Positions 1,578 through 8,254 of a DNA stretch of 64,000 nt are shown here, one piece after another. The translations under genes and the position numbers were made by a program. Position 1 is the first letter of the stretch; every line of letters starts with the position of its first letter. The notes under the pieces were generated by a model. It saw only the letters and a program-made list of their open reading frames with translations, was not told where the DNA came from and made no database searches. This stretch comes from Melioribacter roseus (lineage in GTDB: Bacteria; Bacteroidota; Ignavibacteria; Ignavibacteriales; Melioribacteraceae). Location: contig DYHH01000007.1 of NCBI GenBank assembly GCA_020724265.1, positions 62,001-126,000 of the forward strand. Reading direction: 5' to 3'.

Positions 1578-3443
1578 ATGTGGAACGATAAAGACACTAG
1601 TATTGATCTCATTGATTATGATCATTTAGTTAAAGCTGTTCAAAGAATAATAGAAAATGACGATTTGATTCCTAGTACGATAGGCATTTTTGGTGATTGG
1701 GGAAGTGGTAAATCAAGCTTGATGAGGATGGTTGAGGAAAGTTATGAAAATGAAGCTGAGATTCTTACGGTAAAGTTCAATGGTTGGTTGTTCGAAGGTT
1801 ATGAAGATGCTAAGTCAGTATTAATGGGGACAATTTTAGAAGAGATAACAAGTAATAGAACACTGTCGGAAGAAGCAAAGAAATTAGCAGTTAAGCTATT
1901 TAAAAAAATCGACTGGTTGAAATTAGCAAAGTATGGATTAAAATATGGAGTATCATTTGCAACAATGGGTCCAGTTGGGTTGGGTATTGCAGCTCTATCG
2001 GATATACCAAACAAACTTAGTGAAATTGATTATGAGAAATTCGTTAAATCGCCAGACGATGAAGATCAAGAAGAATCCTTGAGAACTAGTATTAGAGAAT
2101 TCCATTCAGATTTTAAAAAATTGTTGTCTGAAACAAAGATATCTAAGTTAATAGTTTTTATCGATGATTTGGATAGATGTATGCCAGATACAATTATAGA
2201 CACACTTGAAGCCATAAAATTATTCTTATATACCAATAATACAGTTTTTATTATAAGTGCTGATGAACAACTTATTAAATATGCGGTTAGTAAAAGATTT
2301 CCAAGAGTAGAAGGAATTCGCGACTCTGTAAGCAGTGATTATCTTGAAAAGTTGATACAGCATCCTATCAGAATCCCACAATTAGGCGCCGTTGAAATTG
2401 AGACGTACATAAATCTTTTGTTTACAGAGCTGCATATTAAAGAAGGATTTGAAGATGTTCGAGAGAAAGTTTTGCAAAAGAAAAATGAATCTGTATTTGG
2501 TTCTGTGTACACCTTTGAGAATTGTGAAGTATTTTTTGATAGCGATTCAAATACAAGCGACTTAAGAGAGGATTTAATACTGTCTTCTCAAATAACTCCT
2601 ATTTTGACAGAGGGCTTAAATGGGAATCCAAGGCAATGTAAGCGTTTTCTAAATATGTTTATGATGCGAATAGGTATGGCCAACGATAAAAAACTCAATA
2701 TAAAAAAACGCATCTTATCTAAACTAATGTTGTTAGAATATTTTAGAACAGAGACGTTCAGAAATATTTTTAAACTACAATCTTCCCAAGATGGTAAACC
2801 CGCAGAGATAAATTTTATTGAAGGGAAATTAGTAGGTGCAACCGATAATGATTCTGGCGAAGAACAAGTAAATGAAACTTTTGAAGGTGAAGTTAATATT
2901 GATCTATGGTTAAAAGATGAATGGATGATAAAATGGTTTAAAATGGAGCCACAACTTTCGGAAGTTGACTTACGTCCATATTTTTATTTGAGTAGAGATA
3001 GAATTACCTCTCTATCTACTGAGTCAATCCGAATGAGCCCCAGGATTGAAGAATTACTGAATAAATTCCTCTCTGAATCAGATGCGTTGAAAGAACAAGC
3101 TCTAAAAGAAGTTCCTATGCTAAATTCAATTGATGCCAATAATATTTTTCAAATACTTATTAAAAAAGTGAACCAGTCAGAAGATGATATAAAGCGAGAA
3201 AATATACTTAAATCAGTAAATAAATATTGTGGTGTTCGGAGTGAATTACTATCAGAGTTATTTACTTTCTACAACAAATTTCCCGAAAAGCATTTAAATT
3301 ATGCAGCTGTACCTCAGTTGCAATCAGCGGTAAAAGGGACTCCATACGAAAAGAATCTGAAAAATTTATTGGAAAAGTGGAGTCAAAACCAAGATAACAA
3401 ATTATTGGCTTCTATATCCCAAAAATCATTAAGGAAAAAATAA
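1578..3443 (+). CDS. qatA: QatA: KAP-family P-loop ATPase of the QatABCD anti-phage system
   Basis: The 621-residue protein has Walker A GDWGSGKSS at residues 39-47 and a Walker B-type LIVFIDDLDRC near residue 195. The DDLDRC form is the hallmark of KAP-family NTPases. A hydrophobic stretch around residues 115-145 lies between the two motifs, as is usual in KAP proteins, and suggests membrane contact. It is the first gene of four tightly packed genes (qatA-qatB share TAATG, qatB-qatC share ATGA, and qatD follows 10 bp later), which is the order of the described Qat defence operon. Established knowledge: qatABCD protects against phages and the ATPase is required; the mechanism and trigger are not settled. 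The ATG at 1578 is preceded by a short AGG-type ribosome site. Confidence 0.9.
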   Translation: MWNDKDTSIDLIDYDHLVKAVQRIIENDDLIPSTIGIFGDWGSGKSSLMRMVEESYENEAEILTVKFNGWLFEGYEDAKSVLMGTILEEITSNRTLSEEAKKLAVKLFKKIDWLKLAKYGLKYGVSFATMGPVGLGIAALSDIPNKLSEIDYEKFVKSPDDEDQEESLRTSIREFHSDFKKLLSETKISKLIVFIDDLDRCMPDTIIDTLEAIKLFLYTNNTVFIISADEQLIKYAVSKRFPRVEGIRDSVSSDYLEKLIQHPIRIPQLGAVEIETYINLLFTELHIKEGFEDVREKVLQKKNESVFGSVYTFENCEVFFDSDSNTSDLREDLILSSQITPILTEGLNGNPRQCKRFLNMFMMRIGMANDKKLNIKKRILSKLMLLEYFRTETFRNIFKLQSSQDGKPAEINFIEGKLVGATDNDSGEEQVNETFEGEVNIDLWLKDEWMIKWFKMEPQLSEVDLRPYFYLSRDRITSLSTESIRMSPRIEELLNKFLSESDALKEQALKEVPMLNSIDANNIFQILIKKVNQSEDDIKRENILKSVNKYCGVRSELLSELFTFYNKFPEKHLNYAAVPQLQSAVKGTPYEKNLKNLLEKWSQNQDNKLLASISQKSLRKK

Positions 3444-4318
3444 TGGGAACATCTACATCAAATAATGGTCCTTCAAATAATACGCCTTTACTTCCTTCAT
3501 GGGCTGAGCCTGTTTCAAATCCACCTGAGCCAAATCTACCATCTACAATTGCTGAAGATGAAGAGGGAGAAGAAAGTGAAAATCAACCAACTTCAGAAGA
3601 TGATGTAATTCAACCCCCTAGAGTAGAAATACCATTGTCTGGTGAATGGAAGCCTGCAAAAAATTCATTGTCGAGCTATGGTAAGAATCCTAGTTCAGCC
3701 AAATTCAAATCAGCAGCCAAGTCTTATGTTAGAAATGGAGGTGGTGCAAAAGGAATTTCTAAATCAATTATTTCAGGGAAAAAAGCTGGCGTTAGGTTAG
3801 GTTCTCTGCTCTCAAGTTTTTCTAATAATGGGGTTGCCAATACATTTAGAGAATATTTCAATTTAGATTTTGATGGACTATCACTTGAATCAGCCATTAA
3901 TAAAATTGTTGATTTTCTTTCCCCTTATGATGGCACTGTTGAAGATTCAATCACAACAGATGCAGTTACAGAAACCTTATATGAAATATATAAAGATTTT
4001 GATCTGAGTAACAATAATTTATCTGTACTCGATAATATCACCAATGAAAATATTCAAGATATATTTACTAGCTATGCTTCATCATATATTTATTCAAAAT
4101 GGATTAATGAAATTGGAATTGTTCTTGAGAATAAGGAAATAAGTGAAACTCAGATTGTGAAAATAGAAAGACAGATGAAAGAATTTATTAAAGATTCTAT
4201 TAAACTTGAGTTTTCTGAAATTGATTTTAAAAACAAATCAACCTTTGAGAAAAATGAAATTAATAGAATTATGGATGATGTTTTTGAAACTGCTTATCAA
4301 TCATTAGAGGAATTATGA
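3443..4318 (+). CDS. qatB: QatB: accessory protein of the Qat system
   Basis: The 291-residue protein has a low-complexity, Pro/Ser/Glu-rich first 75 residues that are probably disordered. A Lys/Ser/Gly-rich basic stretch (residues 85-125) and a mostly helical acidic C-terminal half follow. No catalytic motif is visible. The call rests on position between a KAP ATPase and a QueC-like gene plus the general QatB layout (disordered N-terminus, about 300 residues). The start codon overlaps the qatA stop (TAATG) and the stop overlaps the qatC start (ATGA), so it is translationally coupled on both sides. In the known system QatB is an essential partner of unknown biochemical role. Confidence 0.8.
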   Translation: MGTSTSNNGPSNNTPLLPSWAEPVSNPPEPNLPSTIAEDEEGEESENQPTSEDDVIQPPRVEIPLSGEWKPAKNSLSSYGKNPSSAKFKSAAKSYVRNGGGAKGISKSIISGKKAGVRLGSLLSSFSNNGVANTFREYFNLDFDGLSLESAINKIVDFLSPYDGTVEDSITTDAVTETLYEIYKDFDLSNNNLSVLDNITNENIQDIFTSYASSYIYSKWINEIGIVLENKEISETQIVKIERQMKEFIKDSIKLEFSEIDFKNKSTFEKNEINRIMDDVFETAYQSLEEL

Positions 4319-5643
4319 TTTTCAATATTGTATTAAAATCAACAAAAGATGATAATTTTTCTGTAGCGGAGTCAGCTATAATGAAGACAATTAGTTTACC
4401 TCCTTTCAATTATGAATGGGGAGCTTATCCAATTTCTCATAACATCAATCGTATTCTTTCTCAGTATAAGTTATCACCTTCTGAAGAAATATCAGATTTT
4501 ATGAATATGGGTTTGGCAGTCTATTGTTCAGATCAACTAATCTCAAGAGAAGAATATGGGTTTTTCAATTGGAGTCGCCACATTAAATTACATCTGCCAG
4601 TTATGAATAAGGAACTTTGGGATAACAACAAAGAATTAGTTGAGCAACTTTTATCATTTTTGAGTGGTGATAAGTGGGAAATATTTTTTCGTTCAAGAAA
4701 TAGTTACTTCAATGAAACATTAGGCGTAAAACCAAATATAGAAAATGTGTGTCTTTTCTCGGGTGGTCTTGATTCATTTGTTGGTGGGATTAATGCAATT
4801 GAAGATAACAAGGATACTGTTTTAGTAAGTCATCATAAACAAGGTGGTAACTCTGGGGAGAAAGACACTCAGGCAGAGCTTGTCAAAGCATTAAAAGGGG
4901 AGTTTCAATTGAAAGATATTCCTCATTTGAATTTTTTAGTTCAACCCAAGAAGAAAAATAATTCTTATGGAGGTGAATCATCTCAAAGAGCTCGGTCAAT
5001 TATTTTTATAGCACTTGGTCTTCTTGTCGCCAATTCTTATGGTGATAAGACAGAACTTTTAATACCTGAGAACGGTTTAATTTCATTAAATATTCCTTTA
5101 ACAAAGACTCGACTTGGTTCTTATAGTACTAAAACAACACACCCTAGGTTTATTGATAATGTGAATAAACTATTAAGCAATATAGGAATCCAGAACAAAG
5201 TTCTAAACCCCTACAGTTTCTTTACAAAAGGAGAGATGCTTCAAAACTGTAAACGTTCAGATATTTTGGTAAAATATGCTGGTAAAACTCTATCTTGTGC
5301 GAAAGCTGGTCACTCACAGCAGTGGCACCGTGCAAAAGAGAAACATTGTGGTTTCTGTACCCCATGTATTATTAGAAGATCAGCAATAAAAAAAGCTGAA
5401 TTTGACAATTATGATTCAAAATATTTTTGTGATATCGTAAGTAATCCCCCTTCACCCAAGAAAAAGAGTGGGAGAGATTTGAGAGCATTCAAGATAGGGA
5501 TTGAAAGATTTAATAGTGATAAAGATAAAGTATTCTTTTCACTATTATCTGCGGGGAGTTTGCCTGGATCTGATCATGATTTAAAAAATTATTTGGATGT
5601 TTACAAAAGAGGTATGAAGGAAGTAGAAGAGTTTATTAAATAA
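4315..5643 (+). CDS. qatC: QatC: QueC-like 7-cyano-7-deazaguanine synthase homologue
   Basis: The 442-residue protein has an ATP-pyrophosphatase PP-loop SGGLDS at residues 149-154. A C-terminal cysteine cluster (SCAKAG, then CGFCTPC followed by IRR, about residues 328-355) matches the zinc site of QueC (one Cys, then CxxCxxC). At about twice QueC length, it carries an additional N-terminal domain of roughly 140 residues, as Qat proteins do. QueC adenylates a carboxylate and converts it to an amide and nitrile with ammonia. In Qat the substrate is not known; modification of a protein or nucleotide is an inference from the fold. All visible PP-loop and zinc residues are kept, so it is probably active. 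Confidence 0.88.
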   Translation: MIFNIVLKSTKDDNFSVAESAIMKTISLPPFNYEWGAYPISHNINRILSQYKLSPSEEISDFMNMGLAVYCSDQLISREEYGFFNWSRHIKLHLPVMNKELWDNNKELVEQLLSFLSGDKWEIFFRSRNSYFNETLGVKPNIENVCLFSGGLDSFVGGINAIEDNKDTVLVSHHKQGGNSGEKDTQAELVKALKGEFQLKDIPHLNFLVQPKKKNNSYGGESSQRARSIIFIALGLLVANSYGDKTELLIPENGLISLNIPLTKTRLGSYSTKTTHPRFIDNVNKLLSNIGIQNKVLNPYSFFTKGEMLQNCKRSDILVKYAGKTLSCAKAGHSQQWHRAKEKHCGFCTPCIIRRSAIKKAEFDNYDSKYFCDIVSNPPSPKKKSGRDLRAFKIGIERFNSDKDKVFFSLLSAGSLPGSDHDLKNYLDVYKRGMKEVEEFIK

Positions 5644-5653
5644 GGTAATACTG

Positions 5654-6382
5654 ATGCATTTCATTGATACACATTTCCATCTTGATTTATGGGACGATCC
5701 AAAATCAATCATTGAAGAAATAGAAAAAAACAAAATTTATACAATTGCAGTCACGAACACACCAAGTGTTTTTTTCCATACATATAATCTTACAGAAAAA
5801 TCTAAATATATCAGACCTGCATTAGGATTCCATCCCGAGCTTGTTTATCAAAGGAAAAGTGAATTACCCCTTTTCTTTGAAAATCTTAAAAAGACTAAGT
5901 ACATAGGTGAAATAGGGCTTGATTACGGCAAACAAAGTAATGAAGATAAAAAAGAACAAAAAAGAGTATTTGAAAAAATAATTGATGCATGCTCAAACCA
6001 CAATGATAAAGTATTAACAATTCACTCAAGGGGTTCTTATAAGGATGTAATTGATATAATAGGAAATGATTTTTCAAACAAAGTTATTTTGCATTGGTAT
6101 TCCGGGTCATTAAAAGAACTTGAGCGGGCTGTTGAATATGGATTCTATTTTTCTGTTAATTTGCCAATGACCATAAGTTTATCTGGACAGAAAGTTATAA
6201 AATCCATTCCTCAACAGAGAATTTTGACAGAATCTGATGGACCGTTTACTAAATTTAATAACAATATTTGTTCACCTTTAAGCATTAATGTTGTTATCAA
6301 AAACCTATCAAATATATATTTAGGCGATTATAGCTTTTACAAACAATTAGTTTATGATAACTTTAGAAAATTACTCTTGTGA
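5654..6382 (+). CDS. qatD: QatD: TatD-like metal-dependent hydrolase
   Basis: The 242-residue protein is of the TatD amidohydrolase fold. Visible metal ligands: HFH at residues 7-9 after FIDT, Glu in GEIGLD (about 95), His in TIHSRG (about 123), His in ILHWYSG, and Asp in TESDGPF near residue 195. The ligand set is complete, so nuclease or hydrolase activity is expected. It is the last gene of the four-gene Qat operon, 10 bp after qatC. In the described system QatD is annotated as a TatD DNase homologue. It is slightly shorter than housekeeping TatD (about 260 residues) and lacks nothing obvious. No clear hairpin terminator is seen after the stop; the following 208 bp carry no supported gene. 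Confidence 0.88.
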   Translation: MHFIDTHFHLDLWDDPKSIIEEIEKNKIYTIAVTNTPSVFFHTYNLTEKSKYIRPALGFHPELVYQRKSELPLFFENLKKTKYIGEIGLDYGKQSNEDKKEQKRVFEKIIDACSNHNDKVLTIHSRGSYKDVIDIIGNDFSNKVILHWYSGSLKELERAVEYGFYFSVNLPMTISLSGQKVIKSIPQQRILTESDGPFTKFNNNICSPLSINVVIKNLSNIYLGDYSFYKQLVYDNFRKLLL

Positions 6383-6590: not shown

Positions 6591-7748
6591 ATGAAAGCGG
6601 AACTTGAAATAAATAATAACGTTCTAATCTGGGCTGTTGAACGCGCCGGCTCTAATATTGACGAGATTTCCCGGAAGGTGCCGGCATTTTCCAATTGGCT
6701 TACCGGCAAAAGGAAGCCAACTATCAAACAACTGAAAACTTTTTCTCAAAAAGTTCACGTTCCTTTTGGGTATCTTTTTCTTGAATCTCCGCCCGAAGAA
6801 AAAATTCCCATACCATTCTTTCGCACACTTCAATCCGGGCGGTTAGCCGATAGAGTAAGTCTAAACGTTTATGATGCTATACTTTTATTACAGCAGAGAC
6901 AAAGATGGCTCGCTGATTATCTAAAAGAAAACGATTACGATGAGCTTGAATTTGTTGGTAAATATGGCAGCATAAACAACATTAACCAGAACGATGAATT
7001 AATAAAAGAAATATCTGAAGATATAAAGAAAACTCTTGGTCTTAAGAACAATTGGGCTAATGAATTTCCATCTTGGGAGAAAGCAAAGGACTTTTTAACA
7101 CAAAAGATTGAAAACGCCGGCATTGTTACAACCTTCAGCAGCATAGTCGGTAATAATACACATCGCAGCATCAAAGTTGAGGAATGCCGTGGCTTTGTTC
7201 TTGTTGATAAATATGCTCCCTTCTTATTCATAAATTCCGCAGATAGCAAGTCCGCCCAAATGTTCACACTTGCACACGAATTGGCTCATATCTGGCTTGG
7301 TAAAAGTGCCGGTTTTGATTTTCGACAGTTGCAGCCTGCCGATAACCCTTCTGAAATACTGTGCGATAAAATTGCTGCTGAGTTTTTAGTTCCGCAGAAT
7401 GAAATCATCGATGTTTTAAGAAGTGAGTCTGAGATAGAAAAGATTGCAAGATATTTTAAAGTCAGTCAAATAGTTATCGCAAGAAGATTACTTGACCTTG
7501 GAAAATTAAGCCGAGCTGAGTTTTTTGAATTTTATGATGATTATATCAAACGCGATGTACAAAAAAAAGAAGATAAAGAAAGCGGTGGAGATTTTTACAG
7601 AACACAACGCAAAAGGCTAAGCGTCCGGTTTTTAAGCTTTATAAATCAAGCTGTTTTAGAAAATAAATTATTAATAAGAGACGCCTACCAGCTTACTGAT
7701 TTGAAAGGCAATACTTATCATAAATTTATGAGGGAACATCTTTATTAA
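6591..7748 (+). CDS. XRE-type HTH plus ImmA/IrrE metallopeptidase protein
   Basis: The 385-residue protein begins with a helix-turn-helix region in which WLTGKRKPTIKQLKTFSQ (residues 36-53) is the typical recognition stretch of XRE/Cro proteins that pair with ImmA domains. The peptidase motif HELAH sits at residues 229-233, with a downstream Glu in NPSEILCDKIAAEFLVP (about residue 255) as third zinc ligand. Family knowledge: such fusions act as regulators or antitoxins that cleave or sense a partner, and they frequently precede DUF4411 PIN-domain genes. Here the stop overlaps the next start (TAATG at 7746-7750), so the two are coupled. Its place in the defence island suggests a toxin-antitoxin or stress-sensing module. 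Confidence 0.88.
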   Translation: MKAELEINNNVLIWAVERAGSNIDEISRKVPAFSNWLTGKRKPTIKQLKTFSQKVHVPFGYLFLESPPEEKIPIPFFRTLQSGRLADRVSLNVYDAILLLQQRQRWLADYLKENDYDELEFVGKYGSINNINQNDELIKEISEDIKKTLGLKNNWANEFPSWEKAKDFLTQKIENAGIVTTFSSIVGNNTHRSIKVEECRGFVLVDKYAPFLFINSADSKSAQMFTLAHELAHIWLGKSAGFDFRQLQPADNPSEILCDKIAAEFLVPQNEIIDVLRSESEIEKIARYFKVSQIVIARRLLDLGKLSRAEFFEFYDDYIKRDVQKKEDKESGGDFYRTQRKRLSVRFLSFINQAVLENKLLIRDAYQLTDLKGNTYHKFMREHLY

Positions 7749-8254
7749 TGTCGGTTTTCATTGTCGATACAAATTTCTTTATTCAATCTCATAGGGTAAC
7801 CTACCCTTTAGATGTAGCAGTAGGGTTTTGGAACACCGTAATAAAAATCGCAAATGAGAACAAAATAGTCAGCATTGATAAAGTGAAAAATGAAATTTAT
7901 AATAACGACGATGAACTAACCACTTGGATTGATGATAATCTTCCACCAAAGTTCTTTAAACCTACTGATACACAAGATGTTTTATCAAACTACTCACGAA
8001 TTGTAAATTGGGCAAACTCAAAGAACGCTTTTTATTTACCTAAAGCGATCAATGAATTTCTTGATTTCAAAAATGCTGATGCCTGGCTGGCAGCCTATGT
8101 TCTTTCATTGGATGAAGAATGCAGTATAACAACCCAAGAAAAAAGCGAACCCAACCGTAAATCAAAAATAAAAATCCCGGAAGTTTGTGATGGATTTGAT
8201 ATTCAATATAAAAATATAATAGAAATGTTCAGAGAATTAGGAGAGAGGTTTTAA
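7748..8254 (+). CDS. DUF4411 family PIN-like protein (probable toxin ribonuclease)
   Basis: The 168-residue protein starts with FIVDTNFFIQ, placing the first acidic PIN residue at Asp7. Further conserved acids are in SIDKVKNEIY (about residue 47) and in FKNADAWLAAYV (about residue 115), followed by the T-x-E strand typical of VapC-like folds. DUF4411 proteins are PIN-domain-like and are commonly encoded directly after XRE-ImmA/IrrE genes, as here. The inferred role is an RNase toxin held in check by the upstream protein, or a nuclease in abortive defence. Translationally coupled to the upstream gene. Confidence 0.82.
   Translation: MSVFIVDTNFFIQSHRVTYPLDVAVGFWNTVIKIANENKIVSIDKVKNEIYNNDDELTTWIDDNLPPKFFKPTDTQDVLSNYSRIVNWANSKNAFYLPKAINEFLDFKNADAWLAAYVLSLDEECSITTQEKSEPNRKSKIKIPEVCDGFDIQYKNIIEMFRELGERF

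Follow-up and report, generated by a model that had tools for sequence, protein, structure and literature searches.

What can be learned from one more copy of a known anti-phage system is the question raised by a four-gene operon in Melioribacter roseus. The operon occupies positions 1578 to 6382 of a stretch of 64,000 nucleotides (contig DYHH01000007.1, positions 62,001 to 126,000), called the window below, and a sequence-only reading had identified it as a complete QatABCD operon. Profile matches, gene order and residue-level features support this identification, and by itself the operon is an ordinary copy of a known system. Its value had been seen in an intact copy; the copy is intact, but the larger interest lies in a diverged QatC-like gene and its partner, which are found outside the window in the same genome. 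We consider it likely (with a probability of roughly 80%) that the window carries a canonical Qat system, that the genome adds a second pair consisting of a QatC-like protein and a partner beginning with MGH[KE]R, and that QatB and QatC represent a general core for sensing and modification, which is combined either with separate qatA and qatD genes or with a fused effector. The QatC-like protein is called QatC2, a label for the separate QatC clade of the second pair. This pair matters more than the window operon and is the lead that deserves bench work.

All four window genes are on the forward strand in the order A-B-C-D, and their frames are open and uninterrupted. QatA (1578..3443, 621 aa) is a KAP-family nucleoside triphosphatase (NTPase; PADLOC QatA 2.7e-142; Pfam KAP_NTPase 8.3e-46; NCBIfam NF041923 552.5 bits with an equivalog cut-off of 600). 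It is followed by QatB (3443..4318, 291 aa), the helical partner of QatC (PADLOC 1.8e-43; NF041924 127.4 bits, cut-off 100), by QatC (4315..5643, 442 aa), a QueC-like PP-loop enzyme (PADLOC 2.3e-117; NF041925 433.3 bits, cut-off 280), and by QatD (5654..6382, 242 aa), a TatD-family metal-dependent hydrolase (PADLOC 5.3e-79; Pfam TatD_DNase 2.9e-46; NF041926 278.2 bits, cut-off 230). PADLOC recognizes all four proteins, and QatB, QatC and QatD exceed the NCBIfam equivalog cut-offs. Pfam matches QatC as QueC and has no match for QatB. Gene overlaps, which had been reported for the operon as a whole, occur at two of the three junctions (1 nt between qatA and qatB, 4 nt between qatB and qatC), but qatC and qatD are separated by a gap of 10 nt.

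The reported catalytic motifs could be read in the translations. QatA has the Walker A motif GDWGSGKSS (residues 39-47, forward strand 1692-1718, counted by hand) and VFIDDLDRC, which includes the reported DDLDRC, while HFHLD, GEIGLDY, IHSRG, LHWYSG and ESDGP were found by eye in QatD. QatC contains its cysteine cluster and, on the forward strand, the ATP pyrophosphate-binding loop SGGLDS (residues 149-154, 4759..4776), with S149, G150, G151, D153 and S154 invariant in 12 of 12 sequences, and TKTTHP (residues 272-277, 5128..5145). Also invariant in all 12 are R225, R227, F231, T272, T274 and the zinc cysteines, and the residue between the two threonines is lysine in six and arginine in six. 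By a six-residue offset derived by hand, T272 and T274 correspond to Thr278 and Thr280 of Pseudomonas QatC, which occupy the sites of the deazaguanine-binding Tyr/Asp in QueC and Cap9 (PMC13279940). Window QatC thus has Thr-x-Thr where Cap9 and QueC have Tyr-x-Asp, with ATP loop and zinc cysteines kept.

The QatB N-terminus carries the tail motif MGTS...P18-S-W20 (forward strand, 3443..3502), with G2 as the putative acceptor glycine. M1, G2, T3, G9 and P18 are present in all 11 aligned QatB sequences and W20 in 10 of them (L017, which lacks its N-terminus, was left out). A QatB with MGTS accompanies three of four further QatC carriers from a second phylum sample; for the fourth (G511), no QatB open reading frame (ORF) of at least 130 aa was listed. 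In the AlphaFold model of window QatB (mean predicted local distance difference test, pLDDT, 75), residues 5-64 score below 50; residues 1-64 are predicted to be disordered, and the folded domain begins at about residue 67. The model superimposes on the QatB crystal structure 9y01_A with Z 24.4 and 2.4 Å over 206 residues, and a PDB profile search retrieves the solved QatC and QatB sequences.

In Pseudomonas, a 1:1 complex of QatB with QatC is sufficient against some phages; defence needs the QatC active site as well as QatB G2 and residues 16-22 with the conserved Pro16 and Trp18, and QatB has no obvious active site (PMC13279940). What QatC modifies had been called open. This is now narrowed by the essential QatB glycine, but that paper reports the reaction of QatB-QatC as unresolved and likewise leaves open the step which stops the phage. 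QatC may hold QatB, draw its tail into the ATP-binding active site and modify or activate the glycine that becomes N-terminal once Met is removed, while QatA (a DNA-binding NTPase) and QatD (a TatD hydrolase) would widen the range of phages stopped. The window operon shares with Qat of Pseudomonas aeruginosa and E. coli (PMC13279940; PMC13329287) the four genes and their order, the MGTS tail, T-x-T, the zinc cysteines and the QatB fold, and no difference was found. The copy is probably active.

We consider it very improbable that the operon in the window has fallen silent or is decaying, as its four frames are open and every checked residue is present. Such a fate is suggested by a genome from the same family (G065:C35, L151 6859-9606), in which QatC is 85% identical to that of the window and QatB residues 47-291 are 96% identical. 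No qatA match was found there in 14 kb and the QatB N-terminus is missing, so that this operon has apparently decayed.

When the genome was searched with window QatC, a second match was obtained, which is 30% identical over residues 35-369 (C41:7119-8129). This gene lies on the same contig, upstream of the operon at a distance of about 55 kb. It codes for a QatC2 of 587 aa and overlaps an upstream gene for a partner of 260 aa, which begins MGHKRYGYLRKTKAW (MGHKR); the pair extends over C41:6465-9007 (locus L003). The same arrangement occurs in 4 other genomes of the 392 from this phylum. A plasmid search with two different partner queries led to a single record, Leptospira noguchii NZ_CP091938, where the pair is annotated as two 'hypothetical proteins'. 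Two loci on viral contigs were found via the partner, and the phage collection contained no relative of the Melioribacter partner. A profile scan of genome contigs with six QatC2 sequences, restricted to two peptide patterns, returned 45 loci. Together, second-pair loci span about 15 phylum-level groups (NCBI naming, plasmid counted, judged by the names of the records and the labels in the tree). Identical QueE coordinates show that three genomes are represented twice (G030/G431, G309/G434 and G218/G411). The two genes overlap by 4 nt in 33 of 47 pairs. In the titles and abstract openings of the open-access papers returned by our searches, no description of such a pair as a system of its own was seen. 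We read the second pair as an undescribed QueC-family immune system with a QatBC-like core and swappable fused effectors, its role in immunity and its chemistry being what we infer.

The pair could instead be a Qat system which has lost qatA and qatD. We consider this quite unlikely, although QatC2 from Melioribacter scores on the QatC models of PADLOC (4.1e-52) and NCBIfam (199.7 bits, below the cut-off of 280), the predicted fold of the partner resembles QatB, and qatA is found beside only 34.3% of the QatC cluster in PMC13329287, so that QatC relatives without qatA are already present there. In the phylogenetic tree, QatC2 forms one group (100/100) and QatC another (99/98), with the three QueC rows outside; the tree program warns of long branches for QueC and for the third and fourth types described below (L150, L030). 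The QatC2 alignment is without the partial or broken sequences L079, L106, L116, L117, L120, L122 and L124 and without the duplicates L026, L028 and L029. The flanks of 53 second-pair loci contain no homologue of QatA, QatB or QatD (phmmer, E 1e-3; the flanks covered measure about 1.5 kb at four loci and up to 5 kb at most of them, and less where a contig ends), and no intermediates which combine an MGHKR partner with qatA and qatD were seen in them. In addition, the partner has a strictly conserved tail of its own, and QatC2 C-termini bear domains that are missing from window QatC.

To analyse the conservation of this tail, a profile of the partner was made from six loci. It matches at 52 of the 53 loci, those six included, and fails only for L120, the contig of which begins inside QatC2; all but the two viral loci had been retrieved by QatC2 and not by the partner. 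The matches in L081, L106 and L116 lack the N-terminal part. When the start codon closest to position 1 of the profile is taken as the start, 48 of the 49 partners with readable N-terminus (three from duplicate genomes) begin with start codon-Gly-His. In an alignment of 42 rows (without L042 from Leptospira, L079, L107 and L122 and the duplicates L026, L028 and L029), His3, Arg5 and Trp15 are invariant, and 41 rows have Gly2 and the start Met-Gly-His. The Gly2 exception is L124 from a viral contig, where the partner stands beside a QatC2 remnant of 80 residues. The mean frequency of the majority residue is 0.81 for residues 2-10 and 0.51 from residue 16 on. The model of the Melioribacter partner is all helical (mean pLDDT 87), and its residues 1-10 are below pLDDT 50. 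Like QatB, the partner has an N-terminal tip that is conserved and yet apparently disordered.

On the enzyme side, the ATP loop and the zinc cysteines are invariant in QatC2, as they are in QatC. Between ENG and TTHP lie 19 residues in all 12 QatC and in 40 of 43 QatC2 (3 were unmatched by the pattern). In Pseudomonas QatC, the loop ending at this site packs against QatB (PMC13279940). The pocket motif is S-R-T in 40 of 43 QatC2 (3 unread) and T-[KR]-T in QatC.

C-terminal to this core, QatC2 proteins differ. Pfam (E <= 0.01) matches QueC in all 43 QatC2, REase_DpnII-MboI in 26, TIR_2 in 3 and Trypsin_2 in 2. As these counts give no member names, members were assigned by eye and by pattern: a D...ExK-type nuclease motif is seen in 25 QatC2, a TIR sequence in L085, L086 and L092, and GASGG in L110 and L112. 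The pair of Chitinophaga tropicalis (L098) is one of those which bear the nuclease. L115, cut by a contig end, begins a TIR sequence and is placed in the tree within a group of nine rows (99/97), apart from L085 and L086. Provided that the fragment in L115 is a TIR domain, at least two changes of TIR, whether gains or losses, have therefore occurred. In the Melioribacter copy no effector was recognized.

Taken together, Qat and the second pair have in common a QueC-family enzyme, an overlapping upstream gene for a Met-Gly partner and the 19-residue spacing; the predicted fold of this partner is, in addition, suggestive of QatB. They differ in that the second pair has no qatA or qatD in the flanks examined, a partner without sequence similarity to QatB, a disordered tail of about 10 residues as compared to 64, S-R-T in place of T-[KR]-T, effector-type C-termini in most cases and, in Melioribacter, a QatC2 below the NCBI cut-off for QatC.

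Two overlapping genes, one of which codes for a protein bearing a nuclease, TIR or protease domain, could equally well make up a toxin-antitoxin module, with the partner holding the fused toxin domain in check; a metabolic module would be the other reading outside immunity. We regard such a non-immune role as unlikely. The ATP loop and the zinc cysteines, both invariant in QatC2, and the conserved glycine at the predicted disordered tip of the partner point to an enzyme-substrate pair, and the Melioribacter pair resides in an island with defence genes. This island (L003 9247-19215) codes for a DrmD-like helicase, an LmuB-like ATPase, an AIPR (AbiU-like) protein, a type III methylase and a DUF1016 nuclease, and the pair itself adjoins an excisionase-like gene, a tyrosine integrase and a Prim-Pol protein. 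At L078 and L080, the downstream ORFs are similar in size and order to those of the Melioribacter locus, which suggests carriage by an integrative element.

Several points weigh against our reading of the window operon and of the second pair. QatA of the window operon does not reach its NCBIfam cut-off, and with its PADLOC score an annotator could call the Melioribacter QatC2 simply QatC. No nuclease, TIR or trypsin match was obtained for 12 of the 43 QatC2, that of Melioribacter included and two of them (L105, L115) cut short, and weak Serpin matches in 3 QatC2 are unexplained. Most carriers of the second pair are metagenome-assembled genomes. When PADLOC was applied to 126 neighbour ORFs at 37 loci (ten loci were excluded by choice and the last ones by the residue limit), the matches listed, 25 of 305 matched families, included mad2 (4), type I methylases (3), AbiEii (3) and type IIG enzymes (2); there was no background control, and enrichment is not claimed. 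The conserved partner tail is not unique, the best C-terminal stretch reaching 0.87. As to the partner fold, Foldseek against the PDB gave no match at E <= 0.001. Among Foldseek's best 1000 chains, re-examined with VIA-align, two QatB structures are on top (9y02_A with Z 11.5, 4.0 Å and 193 aligned of 211 residues; 9y01_A with Z 11.1) and the next unrelated entry has Z 6.3, but a note of the program states that helical models can attain Z 13 by common arrangement, which is above the 11.5 of the partner. Sequence homology of the partner with QatB found no support, the probability in a profile comparison (hhalign) being 1.3%. The Melioribacter partner has no PADLOC match and nothing above cut-off in NCBIfam or Pfam, and a PDB sequence search gave nothing convincing (one match, E 0.45). 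The QatB-like fold is thus suggestive only. Because the partner is paired with a QatC-like enzyme, it is unlikely that QatB became the top structural match by chance; this is not proof.

If the second pair is nevertheless read as an immune system with a QatBC-like core, its QatC2 would hold the partner as QatC holds QatB and would use ATP to act on Gly2 of the partner, and this reaction may control the effector fused to QatC2. A more specific proposal is that QueC-family immune systems form a wider class with QatB/QatC as one branch; in the second branch, a QatC2 ligase would act on a protein of QatB fold with an exposed Gly-His tail, and modification of its glycine would switch on or release the nuclease, TIR or protease effector fused to QatC2. 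For this proposal we see the odds as even; the donor may not be 7-carboxy-7-deazaguanine (CDG). The second pair suggests a further case, with another tail sequence, in which an N-terminal glycine is presented to an enzyme of the QueC family. A sister family whose QatC-like protein often bears a nuclease, TIR or protease domain would make the step that stops phages readable, with effector activity as a measure of partner modification.

Type IV CBASS (cyclic oligonucleotide-based antiphage signalling system; Cap9 and CD-NTase; PMC11996544 and PMC13279940) likewise combines a QueC-family enzyme with a partner that exposes an N-terminal glycine. In the systems described here, however, the partner shows no sign of being a CD-NTase but is either QatB or a helical, QatB-like protein, and the Tyr/Asp deazaguanine pocket residues are absent. 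PADLOC, NCBIfam and Pfam do not identify the Melioribacter second-pair partner as a CD-NTase, and its model is all-helical. With canonical QueC (PF06508, TIGR00364), the SGGxDS ATP loop, the zinc site and the core family are shared, while QatC and QatC2 group apart from the three QueC rows. E. coli QatC fails to restore queuosine in a queC mutant (PMC13329287).

QatC might act exactly as Cap9 does and join host CDG to the N-terminal glycine of QatB. We find this doubtful, falling somewhat short of an even chance. A match to the QueE family, which is needed for CDG, is present (E <= 0.001) in all 18 carriers of the QatC family in this phylum; nine are strong (at least 231 bits) and nine weak (35-92 bits), and 10 of the 18 loci were inspected. 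In Melioribacter itself, the genes for QueD and QueE are side by side (C40:34293-35323). However, at E <= 1e-9 QueE is found in 17 of 18 carriers and in 57 of 60 sampled genomes without QatC; it is near universal in the phylum and its co-occurrence with QatC therefore says little. Two of the four carriers in the second phylum (G519, G581) have an intact qatABCD with an MGTS QatB and no QueD-family gene, and their QueE matches are only weak radical-SAM matches (24 and 29 bits), with the reservation that the QueE model is weak in that phylum in general (32 and 45 bits in G511 and G517, which have QueD). That search asked for a completeness of at least 95%, and its result prints no completeness. 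The Tyr/Asp pair is, moreover, replaced by Thr/Thr in 12 of 12 QatC and by Ser/Thr in 40 of 43 QatC2. The two genomes, by profile absence, hint that endogenous CDG is not needed; salvage, gaps or a missed QueE type are possible. The QueE model does miss types, as G033, G049 and G130 have no QueE match although G049 and G130 have QueC. Systems with a Ser/Thr pocket, together with Qat hosts apparently devoid of CDG synthesis, make the identity of the donor testable.

QueC, which was considered in the same way, is above cut-off in 10 of 18 carriers and 26 of 60 non-carriers, so that a clear link is not seen. Of 43 second-pair genomes, for which no completeness is given, 32 yield a QueE match at E <= 1e-7, and nothing is concluded from this number. 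No canonical QueC was found in the Melioribacter genome, be it by loss or by an assembly gap; the same-genus G119 and G065, G030, G309, G077 and G314 from the family have one.

Two further QatC-like types were encountered. In the third (L150 4622-6498, G230:C15), a 188-aa protein with GTG start, (M)GTSVSQRSPKTTMW, is encoded by a gene overlapping that for a QatC-like protein of 452 aa. In its tail, MGTS as in QatB is combined with PKTxxW as in the MGHKR partner. The fourth (L030 937-2283, G214) is a QatC-like protein of 448 aa on a long branch basal to QatC and QatC2, with an ORF of 152 aa upstream.

A type IIG enzyme had been noted next to the operon. The full gene (C41:59717-63475, 1252 aa, PADLOC 1.2e-284) ends about 100 nt upstream of qatA, and only this end is within the window. 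Other defence genes had been claimed as well; downstream matches do exist, but they are weaker (an ImmA/IrrE-type peptidase, RmrA 3.5e-15, and a DUF4411 protein). These two genes (window 6591-8254) are adjacent and co-directional and possibly represent a toxin-antitoxin or regulator pair. Qat operons are not rare: among 392 genomes of the Melioribacter phylum, 12 have a QatC above cut-off, as do 4 of 398 genomes of the second phylum sample, that of a Christensenellaceae record. In two carriers of the latter (L148 in G511, L147 in G581), the ORFs for QatA, QatC and QatD have equal lengths and starts, which suggests recent transfer.

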